Shown here piece after piece: positions 4,386-30,443 of a DNA stretch of 34,441 nucleotides. This DNA comes from an uncultured Candidatus Saccharibacteria bacterium (GTDB taxonomy: Bacteria > Patescibacteriota > Saccharimonadia > Saccharimonadales > Saccharimonadaceae), in assembly GCA_944391325.1 (NCBI GenBank), contig CALXTC010000022.1, positions 1 to 34,441 on the forward strand, in the 5' to 3' direction. The notes under the pieces are model-generated. The model did no database searches and was not told the DNA's origin. It was given only the letters and a program-made list of their open reading frames with translations. The position numbers were made by a program, and so were the translations under genes. Within the stretch, counting starts at the first letter, position 1. The number at the start of each line of letters is the position of its first letter.

Positions 4386-4415
4386 TTGCATTTACCACCA
4401 CATCCATGCTACAAT
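4386..4415 (+). promoter_or_regulatory. Promoter of the large surface protein gene
   Basis: TTGCAT (4386-4391), an 18-base spacer, then TACAAT (4410-4415) as an extended -10 (TGCTACAAT). It ends 13 nt before the ATG at 4429, so the mRNA would have at most a few leader bases. This supports 4429 as the start codon. Confidence 0.65.
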
Positions 4416-4428
4416 AACCACTAACATT

Positions 4429-7400
4429 ATGGTGTGGTGGAATAAAACTAACAAAAACCCAGTAGGGGGGGGTAATTCCCAGAACCTAAACCAACGGTTT
4501 AGTTTCACCTCCCATACTAGGAAAGGTCACCTACAAGGACGACCGCAGAATAACCGTCATTCTCTACGCCTTACCCTTCCTACTAAGGAAGGTAACTTGC
4601 AAGGACGACCGCAGAATAACCGTCATTCTCTACACCTTGCCTCCCCTGCTAGGGGAGGTGACTTGCATCGCAAGTCGGTGGGGTTTAAAACCCTCACTAT
4701 CGCTTGCTTAGCCTTAGCCCTCATTAGCACCATCTCCCTCAACATCATCAGAACCTACTCCATCAACAACACTAGGACTAATGCCCTAGGCAATACTACC
4801 TCGGGTATAGCAACCCAGAGTGCTAGCGATGGTAATGCTCTAACTGGCCCCGCATTCATCTCTCTTAAACTATCCCCAGTTACCACCAATACCACTAGTA
4901 ACCCAGATGACGGCTCAGCCATCGTATCACTTAACATACCAGCCGATGGTGGTGTAGCTGTTGGTGGACATAGTGTTGAAGTAACTACCAATAGTACTGC
5001 TGGCTACAAGGTAACTATGAGCTTAGACAATGGACACGATAGTACCGACCTAGTAAACACAGACCTACCCAGCCAAATCATCCCATCACTACCTGAACCA
5101 ACGTCAGACACGCTAACTCCATTAGAAAACAAGACCTGGGGTATAGCTCTCTTAGTATATCCCTTTAGTAGTATATTTAGTGGTGATGAGATTTATTCGT
5201 CTGCTGACCAGGCTGTGCTGTCCCAAGCAAAATTTATAGCGCCGGGCTACATTCTGCGCTTTTTGGACTACGCAGATTGGTTTTTTGAACAACCAACCGG
5301 CCCTAACCATGATGGTACAGCAGCAGACAACCTTGGTAATATCTACTATGGTGTCCGGGTAGATGACCCATCAACCTTTACAGCTGGTCAATACACAACA
5401 TCAATTACCTACACAGCTATTGCTAATATCCCACCAGCCCCAGAACTAACCAAACTAGTCCTTAATGACTCAGTTCAACAAAACCAAACCAGTGAGTTTG
5501 CCATAGAGGGTACTAGCCTAGATGCCGTCTATAGCATTAAACTATGCCCAACTGGTCAACAACCAGATACTACTAACACCAACTGCTATGAAGTACCTAG
5601 CAAAGACATAGATACCTACCTAGACGATACTACTACCTCAACCAAAGGTACTGTCCTATCCTTTACTAACCCAGCTATCTCAGAACCAGGTACCTATGAT
5701 GTCTATGCTGTTAGTCAAGGTGGTACCTCTCAACCCCTAACTAATGCCTTCATTGTCCAAGAAGAATCTACCTGCCGTAATGGTGATCCTAACTCAGACT
5801 GCCAAGTAGACATAGACGCCAATATGATCCCGGTAGTCTACGATGGCTATGATGGTAATGGTGGAGGTAGCTGGAGGATTGTGACTAAGGAAGAGATAGA
5901 AAATGATGAGGGTAGTTGGTATGACTATAGCGAGAAGAAATGGGCTAATGCGATAACGCTCAGGGATGATTACGAGGGAGGCTGTTTTGCGCTATTAGGC
6001 GAGGGGAGTTCGAGTGAAGGAAAGATTGGCTATTTCTCGAGTAGCCTTCAATGTGAGATAAGCGCTCGTGGACAATCTGCAGATGTGCGCGCACCCGAGA
6101 TTATTTCAGGAACAATATACACGCCACTTGGTTTAGCCAAGGCCTGGAGCAATGGTGAGCTGCCGGATGGGGTCGATGCTAGCCAACTGAACGAGATACT
6201 CTTTAGTAGTGATGTCTCCGACGGTACTAGTGCAACGGAAGTTATTCTAGGTTACTGGGTCTACATCCCTAGATACGCCTATGAAGTCCAACGTCCTAAT
6301 GCCATAGACAGAGTAGTCACTGATGAGTATCCACTACCAGATAACGTTAATACTACAGGCGATAACTACTCTCCATACAACACTCATTCCATCAGAAATG
6401 AATTCTCCATCCACTTTGAGAAAGCAACCGATACTAAGAAAACCCCCGCTGAAACATGCAACACACTAAACATAACCAATCCTAACCAAATGTGGGCTAA
6501 TGGTACACCAACTCACGTAGCTGGCCCAGACAACACTAACATCCTAGCTAAAGACTACCGTACTGGCTGTGCTGCTCCAGGCAATACTAATGGTCAAAAC
6601 AATACAACCATCTCTCGTCTATACACTGATGCTAACACCACAGCTAACAACACCACCTGGGCTACTCATCCTGCCTTTAGTTGGTTAGATAACGATGGTA
6701 ATGGGGAAGAACTAAATGGTCTCTGGATTGGTAAGTTTGAAACCACCGGCAAGGTTAACGCTCCAACCGTCAAGCCTAACCAACATGCTAACGTCAGTGA
6801 ATACATTGGTGAGTTCTACACTATGGCTAAACACATTGGAGCTTACGATCCAAGTAATACTGGTGGTAATGACATAACAGCTAATGGCACTACCCTAAAT
6901 GCAACAGGGCAGTGGACAAGTTTGCATAACCTATCTACAGCTACCTCCCATATGCTCAAAAACTCTGAATGGGGTGCCATAGCCTACTTAGCCTCCTCTA
7001 AATATGGTGCCGGTACTAACAATGTCTCTAATAACAACGCCTACCCATCTAAGTCAGCTGATGCTGACGGAACTAGTTCTAGAGATGGCATCACTGGCTG
7101 TGGCCCCAATAATGCTAATCGCTCTACTGATGCTTACAGTTCCGTCACTACCTCAACTGGTGAAACAGTTGACCTACCAGAACTATCCAGTAGCCATATA
7201 GAGGATCCTTTAGCCTGTGGTGATGTAGAACACTCTTATATAGGGAAGATAGGTCAACTAGCCAGTACGACTAACAACGTCTACGGCATCTACGATATGT
7301 CTGGTGGAGTCTATGACTATGCTATGGGCAATTTAACTAGTTCAGATACTGAAACAACACCAAATACTACTGGAACAATGCAAAATCAAGCTAAGCCACC

Positions 7401-7752
7401 TTATGTAGATTTATACAAAGAATCCCTAGGCTTTGACTCAACTGGCAGCGATGATGCTAACCCCACTTGGTCATATTCGGCAAATGCTGAATACTACAAT
7501 AACGATATCTGCATCTGGGGTACCTGTGGCGGTCATGCCCTACACGAAACTAAGCATTACCAGTCGACTTCGTACAACAATCAGTCTTGGGGCGACGATA
7601 TCTCCTCCTTCGTCTACTCGAACCGTCGCTGGTGTGCTCGTGGCATGTACGCATGGGGCAGTTCCTTTGCTGGACTGTTCAGCTCAGCCTACGGCGATGG
7701 CGATACCGACGACTATTACGGCTTTCGGTCTGTGCTGCTGGCTGCTCCATAG
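4429..7752 (+). CDS. Large membrane-anchored surface protein with FGE/C-type-lectin-like C-terminus
   Basis: I infer a cell-surface, possibly adhesive protein of 1107 residues. Residues 1-87 are polar and basic and include a glycine run encoded by a G8 tract (4465-4472) and two copies of LQGRPQNNRHSL. A single membrane helix follows at about 88-110, then a Thr/Asn-rich exported region. An IPT/TIG-like beta domain is plausible at about 340-445. The C-terminal half (about 600-1107) has formylglycine-generating-enzyme/SUMF-like hallmarks: GYWVYIPRYAYEV, LKNSEWGAIAYLASSKYG, YGIYDMSGGVYDYAMG and a final GFRSVLLAAP. Proteins ending in this fold can serve as diversity-generating retroelement targets, but no reverse transcriptase is in the window. 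The coding strand is A/C-rich with G-rich patches, unlike the flanking G/T-rich genes, suggesting mosaic origin. The function is not established. Confidence 0.85.
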   Translation: MVWWNKTNKNPVGGGNSQNLNQRFSFTSHTRKGHLQGRPQNNRHSLRLTLPTKEGNLQGRPQNNRHSLHLASPARGGDLHRKSVGFKTLTIACLALALISTISLNIIRTYSINNTRTNALGNTTSGIATQSASDGNALTGPAFISLKLSPVTTNTTSNPDDGSAIVSLNIPADGGVAVGGHSVEVTTNSTAGYKVTMSLDNGHDSTDLVNTDLPSQIIPSLPEPTSDTLTPLENKTWGIALLVYPFSSIFSGDEIYSSADQAVLSQAKFIAPGYILRFLDYADWFFEQPTGPNHDGTAADNLGNIYYGVRVDDPSTFTAGQYTTSITYTAIANIPPAPELTKLVLNDSVQQNQTSEFAIEGTSLDAVYSIKLCPTGQQPDTTNTNCYEVPSKDIDTYLDDTTTSTKGTVLSFTNPAISEPGTYDVYAVSQGGTSQPLTNAFIVQEESTCRNGDPNSDCQVDIDANMIPVVYDGYDGNGGGSWRIVTKEEIENDEGSWYDYSEKKWANAITLRDDYEGGCFALLGEGSSSEGKIGYFSSSLQCEISARGQSADVRAPEIISGTIYTPLGLAKAWSNGELPDGVDASQLNEILFSSDVSDGTSATEVILGYWVYIPRYAYEVQRPNAIDRVVTDEYPLPDNVNTTGDNYSPYNTHSIRNEFSIHFEKATDTKKTPAETCNTLNITNPNQMWANGTPTHVAGPDNTNILAKDYRTGCAAPGNTNGQNNTTISRLYTDANTTANNTTWATHPAFSWLDNDGNGEELNGLWIGKFETTGKVNAPTVKPNQHANVSEYIGEFYTMAKHIGAYDPSNTGGNDITANGTTLNATGQWTSLHNLSTATSHMLKNSEWGAIAYLASSKYGAGTNNVSNNNAYPSKSADADGTSSRDGITGCGPNNANRSTDAYSSVTTSTGETVDLPELSSSHIEDPLACGDVEHSYIGKIGQLASTTNNVYGIYDMSGGVYDYAMGNLTSSDTETTPNTTGTMQNQAKPPYVDLYKESLGFDSTGSDDANPTWSYSANAEYYNNDICIWGTCGGHALHETKHYQSTSYNNQSWGDDISSFVYSNRRWCARGMYAWGSSFAGLFSSAYGDGDTDDYYGFRSVLLAAP
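4465..4472 (+). repeat. G8 homopolymer inside the 5' coding region
   Basis: Eight consecutive G bases span codons 13-15 of the surface protein gene at 4429. A change of one base would shift the frame near the start codon. This is a classic arrangement for slipped-strand phase variation, although here variation is only inferred. Confidence 0.9.
4506..4700 (+). repeat. Palindromic repeat cluster embedded in the coding sequence
   Basis: An exact 34-bp repeat occurs at 4534-4567 and 4600-4633, with a 66-bp period (22 codons). Interleaved palindromes follow the same pattern: an imperfect one at 4507-4527; CCCTTCC...GGAAGG at 4574-4592; CCTCCCCT/AGGGGAGG at 4640-4658 with loop GCT; ACTTGC/GCAAGT at 4661-4675; and GGGTTT/AAACCC at 4681-4693. 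They resemble intergenic palindromic repeats but are translated in frame as part of the N-terminal cytoplasmic segment. Confidence 0.8.
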
Positions 7753-29561: not shown

Positions 29562-30443
29562 ATGCAACAAAGTGACAATGACCAATATGCAATTGACGAA
29601 GAGCGCCGTCGAGCTATGGCGTTTGAAAATTACAGTCTAAACCGCGATGCTGAACCTAAACCGTTTGATTACGATTCCTTGCCCGAGGCAGACAAGCAAC
29701 GCATTGACGGTTGGGAGGCAATTCGTGATGAGTGGGCTGATGCTAATGGCGAGGTGGCGCCTGAACAGACTTCGGTTGATGCTAATGGCGAGGTGGCGCC
29801 TGAACAGACTTCGGTTGATGCCGGTACCGAACGTGAGATTGCCTTGGAAAAGGCTGGGACTGAGAATCAGTCGCAGTTTATTAAAAATGCCACTGCTCAG
29901 CGGCTACGCGCCAAATACGGTGTCGATTCATTGGAGATGACGGAGGGTGAGCAGAAGGCGTATGATGATATGGTTTATCAAATGCGTCAGGGTAATAATG
30001 CTACTAATCTAGCCTCGATCAATGCTATTACGGGTGTTGATCGATACGACTCGCATAATACTGGTTTTGATCATACTATCACTGCCAACGGTGTCGCTGC
30101 GTTAATGCAAGAGGCTAAACAACCACCCGCCGAACAACGTCAGGGGCTAGACAACAGCGAGATGATACTGGCGGCTGGTGCTGGCAATACGCCCGACGGT
30201 CAATTGTCTAGTCAGATAGAATCTGTCCAGCCACTAGATAACCTGGGCGGCGATAATCCGAATGAGATTAATGCTACTGGTCAAGATATTGACCAAGCAG
30301 AGAGAACTCTGTCGTTTGTGGATAATGCTCAGAACTATGGTTTTAACGCTGGTAATGATTCCATTAGCGAACAAAATCGTCGTCGACTAGCTGAGGCTAG
30401 GGAAGATGTCGATGATATACAGTCGCTAGCCAAGGCTGCTTAG
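29562..30443 (+). CDS. Acidic soluble protein of unknown function with tandem duplication
   Basis: I do not recognise this 293-residue protein. It is acidic and Gln/Asn-rich, with no signal peptide or membrane helix, and looks mostly helical or disordered. A 13-residue unit, ANGEVAPEQTSVD, occurs twice in a row from an exact 39-bp DNA duplication. The central part (AQRLRAKYGVDSLEMTEGEQKAYDDMVYQM) and the tail (RRRLAEAREDVDDIQSLAKAA) contain amphipathic helices. It has its own extended -10 promoter. The neighbours, greA before and two small peptides after, give no functional clue. Confidence 0.75.
   Translation: MQQSDNDQYAIDEERRRAMAFENYSLNRDAEPKPFDYDSLPEADKQRIDGWEAIRDEWADANGEVAPEQTSVDANGEVAPEQTSVDAGTEREIALEKAGTENQSQFIKNATAQRLRAKYGVDSLEMTEGEQKAYDDMVYQMRQGNNATNLASINAITGVDRYDSHNTGFDHTITANGVAALMQEAKQPPAEQRQGLDNSEMILAAGAGNTPDGQLSSQIESVQPLDNLGGDNPNEINATGQDIDQAERTLSFVDNAQNYGFNAGNDSISEQNRRRLAEAREDVDDIQSLAKAA
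29739..29816 (+). repeat. Exact 39-bp tandem duplication in coding sequence
   Basis: Two identical 39-bp units (29739-29777 and 29778-29816), each starting GATGCTAATGGC and ending TTCGGTT, are followed by GATGC of a third. The unit length keeps the frame, so copy number can vary without breaking the gene. Confidence 0.95.

Follow-up and report, generated by a model that had tools for sequence, protein, structure and literature searches.

A poly-G tract as a likely phase-variation switch in a family of predicted surface protein genes of a Saccharibacteria genome

The window analyzed here is the whole of contig C22 (34,441 bases) from the genome of an uncultured Candidatus Saccharibacteria bacterium (G000; 623,616 bases in 27 contigs). 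It carries a gene for a predicted surface protein of 1107 residues, which is preceded by a class-I tRNA synthetase gene, probably for the isoleucyl enzyme, and which contains a run of eight G close to its start codon (Table 1). A sequence-only reading of this DNA had pointed to the run and to a tandem repeat of 66-bp period with an exact 34-bp core behind it, and had proposed that slippage in the run switches the protein off or on. Both features were confirmed. The G8 tract lies within an 1107-codon open reading frame (ORF) that begins MVWWNKTNKNPVGGGNSQNL, and the repeat was recovered by Tandem Repeats Finder (4507-4667, period 66, 2.4 copies, score 217) and by comparison of the units, which share the core at 4534-4567 and 4600-4633. 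Below, C with a number denotes a contig of G000 unless another genome is named, L with a number a stretch extracted around a homolog or a G run, G001 a genome of the same genus, and G004, G043, G063, G082 and G086 further relatives. The stretches around G runs and paralogs are the part of G000 that was sampled as sequence.

Table 1. Positions of the surface protein gene and of the elements in and around its leader (window coordinates).
Feature	Position	Strand	Remarks
Extended -10 promoter element TGCTACAAT	4407-4415	+	13 nt upstream of ATG; by-eye reading across paralogs
Surface protein gene (predicted), 1107 aa	4429-7752	+	ATG; signal anchor and C-type-lectin/FGE-like C-terminal domain; ON now, G8 in frame
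G8 tract	4465-4472	+	codons 13-15; paralog tracts G7-G10
66-bp palindromic unit 1	4515-4580	+	translated in frame, 22 codons
66-bp palindromic unit 2	4581-4646	+	one unit more than C3, C8, C19 and C23
Palindrome CTCCCCTGCTAGGGGAGG	4641-4658	+	part of a dispersed REP-like (repetitive extragenic palindromic) element; more copies on C17, C19 and C25
Possible internal start TTG	4663-4665	+	in frame, after GGGGAGG; putative
Hydrophobic signal-anchor segment LTIACLALALISTISLNI	4693-4746	+	read from sequence
C-terminal domain	6253-7749	+	conserved between Patescibacteria and gut Bacilli; fold resembles TaqVP, a variable protein of a diversity-generating retroelement (DGR)

A DNA and a protein search of G000 returned six further members of the family, and we listed every run of at least seven G in G000 and read each in context. 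Six paralogs, the window gene included, carry a G tract at the same place, and their proteins are 40-70% identical; a seventh, C1, has the same start region (MMKWWSNMNHK) and no tract. The tracts are located at C22:4465, C3:4921, C7:23537, C8:2267, C19:7730 and C23:14345. The distance from ATG to tract is 36 nt in C22, C3 and C19, 57 nt in C23 and C8, and 59 nt in C7. We scored each gene as ON or OFF by the register of its long frame relative to its own ATG. C22 and C3 (both G8) and C7 (G9) are ON; C19 (G10), C23 (G7) and C8 (G9) are OFF, and their ATG-frame products end after 20, 26 and 22 residues, respectively. A long frame of 959-1052 codons is open directly behind the tract in all three OFF genes, and the tract register is the sole break in each. 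In C7, at 40% identity, the start-to-tract distance is 2 mod 3 and the tract has nine G rather than eight, so that the frame is open again. Length shifts of 21 and 66 bp between paralogs likewise keep the frame from ATG to anchor. The family thus has the marks by which homopolymer contingency loci are known: a run of about seven or more G or C early in the ORF, a change of length that shifts the frame and truncates the product, and a frame behind the tract that is intact and selected in the OFF copies.

The bodies of the paralogs gave ratios of nonsynonymous to synonymous substitution (dN/dS) of 0.23-0.39 in all pairs, at synonymous divergence (dS) of 0.77-1.33; the OFF-OFF pair C19-C23 gave 0.36. 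With zero stops in 959-1052 codons of each OFF frame, the time spent untranslated is at most about 0.03 neutral substitutions per site, which is a few per cent of the divergence between paralogs. This limit makes the OFF states recent or transient. The leader from tract to anchor is far more alike between copies (dS 0.03-0.31, versus about 1 in the body), and we therefore infer that this cassette is homogenized between copies or constrained as DNA.

Under a Markov-1 model, about 39 runs of at least seven G were expected in G000 and 12 were seen; for runs of at least eight, nine were seen and about nine expected. Six of the 12 fall in the 5' leaders of the seven paralogs. The abundance of long G runs is therefore ordinary and their placement is not; the binomial chance of this placement is 1e-14, a figure that overstates the surprise because it takes related paralogs as independent. 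Runs at C12:17948, C15:3061, C16:59805 and C19:18426 are non-coding and were left uncounted as switches. Two other runs lie in genes outside the family. On the reverse strand of L054 (G000:C12:12861-12867), an RCC1-repeat-like surface gene has a G7 midway along its length and its frame is broken exactly there, a possible seventh switch locus. In an ABC transporter ATPase-like gene on the reverse strand of L055 (G000:C13:1398-1405), a G8 lies between an ATG and the gene body, which is out of frame from that ATG; a GTG just behind the tract offers an alternative start.

The protein family has a patchy distribution, with 19 carriers among the 394 genomes in the GTDB family, and G tracts recur in some of its members. 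L069 (G043) has an ATG, 13 codons and then a G9 that is out of frame; L074 (G086) also has a G9 out of frame near its 5' end, and in L209 and L070 a G9 near the 5' end lies inside the frame. The homolog in L210 (G063, reverse strand, 1482-1490) has its tract in the promoter, in the order TTGACG, AACCCATTA, G9 and TATAAT, with the ATG 15 nt after the tract. When all 39 runs of at least eight G in G043, G001 and G082 were considered regardless of gene, five lay in a -35/-10 spacer with at least 10 of 12 matches; shuffled flanks predicted 0.2, and none of 39 C runs lay in such a spacer. Three of the five, all in G043, match at 12 of 12, with perfect TTGACA and TATAAT flanking G8-G11. Genes behind three of the five encode a hydrophobic N-terminal segment, in two cases together with RCC1 or TIG domains. 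These spacer tracts probably reflect transcriptional phase variation. In G001, most of the runs of at least eight G belong to palindromic non-coding elements, and they were rejected as switches. Promoter-spacer poly-G was observed in other genera of the family at L210, at L228, L229, L238 and L223 (G043) and at L257, L254 and L255 (G082), in front of secreted genes of RCC1, TIG or C-type-lectin (CLec) type wherever the gene is visible.

The C-terminal domain can be aligned between the Patescibacteria and Bacilli homologs. In 760 kb around the homologs from a genome scan, mainly in metagenome-assembled genomes (MAGs) of gut Bacilli, all 16 runs of at least eight G share the strand of the homolog. 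Among the 15 distinct runs in Bacilli, 11 lie in promoter spacers, versus 0.46 expected. The domain family may well be tied to poly-G switches in gut Bacilli too, in which case this type of adhesin and this type of switch recur together across phyla. Spacer tracts of G8-G10 (of the form TTGACA-CC-G8-TATTA-TATAAT) were seen at L131, L137 (three sites), L143, L153, L162, L171 and L122-L124. Coding tracts at the start of an ORF were seen at L140 and L173, the former shortly upstream of a prepilin-like GFTLIELLAV.

The position of the start codon determines what the tract can do. The extended -10 element TGCTACAAT also stands 13 nt before the ATG in C8 and C19, with related versions in C3 (TGCTATAAT) and C1 (TGATATAAT); a promoter consensus scan, which requires a -35 hexamer, did not report it. 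This spacing would give the window gene a near-leaderless mRNA. C7 has a GAGGGG ribosome-binding site before its ATG in place of the element. We favor the ATG upstream of the tract as the true start because the WW-containing start region is common to the tract-less C1, because the -10 element keeps its 13-nt spacing in three copies, and because of the GAGGGG in C7. A start downstream of the tract, which the sequence-only reading had named as its own refutation, accordingly looks unlikely.

Comparison lends strong support to the proposed frame switch: six paralogs hold tracts of between 7 and 10 G, half of them are ON and half OFF, the OFF frames are intact, and G9 recurs in other genera. We consider it highly probable that the G8 of the window gene is a translational phase-variation switch, and very likely that it is one of six such poly-G switches in G000. 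Slipped-strand mispairing at replication would gain or lose a G, in either direction. With eight G (n = 2 mod 3), the ATG would be read in frame with the signal anchor and a roughly 1000-residue extracellular part; in the other registers found among the paralogs, translation would end at the tract or a few codons beyond. As each gene of the set has its own tract, cells would come to differ, and a population could hold many combinations of CLec-type surface proteins.

The tract would matter less if translation began at the internal TTG, or if ribosomal or RNA-polymerase slippage partly restored the frame, so that tract length merely tuned expression. Being in frame and 4 nt behind GGAGG, the TTG would yield a signal-anchor protein of normal type, and polymerases are well known to slip on homopolymers. 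This explanation is nevertheless very unlikely. A strong palindrome encloses the GGAGG, the frame is held from ATG to anchor across paralogs (through the 21- and 66-bp differences, and in C7 through G9), and the start region and -10 spacing described above point to the upstream ATG. In L210 and most Bacilli loci the tract would act through the promoter, a level at which slippage in translation makes no difference. We find it very improbable that the OFF paralogs are dying pseudogenes and their tracts inert relics of a common leader, with the window gene constitutive. Such a leader could be shared by descent or gene conversion, as its low dS would allow, and selection on the tract of each copy would then be unneeded. 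Decay does not fit genes in which the tract register is the one break and the remaining frame is open at the dN/dS values given above, and the tract persists even in C7, where the shifted ATG-to-tract distance and the G9 together keep the frame open. Recurrence of G9 at coding and promoter positions in other genera is also contrary to an inert relic.

Homopolymers are a known weak point of sequencing, the assembly is fragmented, and the tract lengths could be assembly or sequencing errors. We give this very little credence, since errors would not place runs of 7-10 G all in a single family and at the same codon position, G runs elsewhere in G000 are rarer than expected, and the promoter-spacer tracts in other assemblies are recognizable without an exact length; the consensus of a population with mixed lengths would, moreover, look alike. 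Several points do weigh against a phase-variation switch. The differences in tract length are seen between paralogs, not between cells; the assembly is in 27 contigs and 77.8% complete; and the TTG behind GGGGAGG could bypass the tract. In related genomes, where the sequence-only reading had suggested comparing tract length, G9 occurs in coding or promoter-spacer positions of other genera, but a 5' tract is lacking in most homologs of the family, among them those of the same-genus G001.

The window protein has a predicted signal-anchor-like segment and a CLec-type domain. It has no named domain in Pfam, NCBIfam or PHROGs; the protein of one relative gave a weak match to FGE-sulfatase. Plasmid records gave no match, nor did a scan of genome contigs with the single window protein as query. 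An AlphaFold2 model (pTM 0.78) matched TaqVP (PDB 5vf4, C-type-lectin fold) in Foldseek with E 2.6e-6 and probability 1.00, the mean pLDDT of the model being only 67.5. Because its C-terminal fold resembles that of DGR variable proteins (PMC6328139), the model suggests a surface protein that binds a ligand. The reverse transcriptase domain RVT_1 had no match in G000, at its 77.8% completeness, or in G001, and for the variable 3' end no DGR template repeat was found in G000, where only the 3' ends of paralogs match. A DGR acting in G000 was rejected on these two grounds. Over window positions 7540-7749, at the 3' end, the differences among C22, C8 and C23 fall largely in codons with C or T in third place, and the flanks agree, a pattern reminiscent of past DGR diversification. 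In the relative G004, a reverse transcriptase gene adjoins a homolog of the C-terminal domain (L072/L091/L217; G004:C20:19491-21641), and this homolog is likely a DGR target.

Homopolymer switches in promoter spacers include those of Neisseria porA and opc and of Bordetella fim. The G tracts between -35 and -10 in L210, L228, L229 and L238 and in the Bacilli loci L131, L137, L153, L162 and L171 resemble them, whereas the tract of the window gene is in a coding position. Poly-G or poly-C contingency loci within ORFs are known from Neisseria (for example hmbR and hpuA; PMC3786947), Campylobacter and Helicobacter (H. canadensis; PMC2823697). As here, homopolymeric G near the 5' end of surface protein genes sets full-length against truncated product at several loci per genome; the present case differs in its phylum (Patescibacteria), in its protein family and in the translated palindromic repeat leader behind the tract, and is known from sequence alone. 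The lineage, protein family and leader architecture are thus new, and the type of switch is not. The sequence-only reading knew of no described example in this lineage, and the literature that we searched likewise contained no account of homopolymer phase variation from Saccharibacteria or any other Patescibacteria. Matches for phase variation in the candidate phyla radiation (CPR) were unrelated except for the nearest case, a hypervariable repeat gene of a Gracilibacterium for which slipped-strand variation was proposed (PMC6851277); its 9-bp in-frame repeats alter length, and the accessible part of that report describes no on/off frame switch or G tract.

Every cultivated member of the Patescibacteria lives as an obligate episymbiont on other microbes (PMC12206443). 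We think it reasonably probable that this Patescibacteria lineage holds a whole set of CLec-type surface proteins that switch independently, with poly-G frame switches in a translated palindromic leader cassette that is near-identical and kept uniform among paralogs, poly-G promoter switches in sister genera, and the same domain family tied to poly-G switches in gut Bacilli. If so, the random switching of C-type-lectin-like surface proteins on and off would offer a direct and testable mechanism of bet-hedging, bearing on how Patescibacteria recognize and change hosts or evade phages. It would also provide a simple rule for spotting such genes in MAGs, where they are otherwise annotated as frameshifted pseudogenes.

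The sequence-only reading had further proposed that recombination between the 66-bp repeats changes the leader in steps of 22 codons. This held in so far as the number of units differs between paralogs (two in C22, one each in C3, C8, C19 and C23) by steps that keep the frame. Frequent recombination is less well supported: units 1 and 2 are only 85% identical in an ungapped alignment, and the array in C22 is therefore not a young expansion. The units stand in frame, N-terminal to the membrane anchor, and the paralogs differ in them by whole units, which would change the length of the leader and leave the frame intact. The leader RNA is predicted to fold more strongly than shuffled sequences (z -3.7). 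The dispersed palindromic element (CTCCCCTNNTAGGGGAGG) occurs in five paralog leaders and also elsewhere on C17, C19 and C25, and C7 has another palindrome at the same place in its leader. Rfam gave no match in the window, and the leader sequence was not found in viral contigs. By analogy, the element may be compared with the in-frame Rickettsia palindromic elements (RPE), since here too a palindrome is dispersed outside the family and stands in frame in ORFs. Elsewhere in the window, a perfect 39-bp tandem repeat (29738-29821, 2.2 copies) lies in frame in an ORF of unassigned function (29562-30443).
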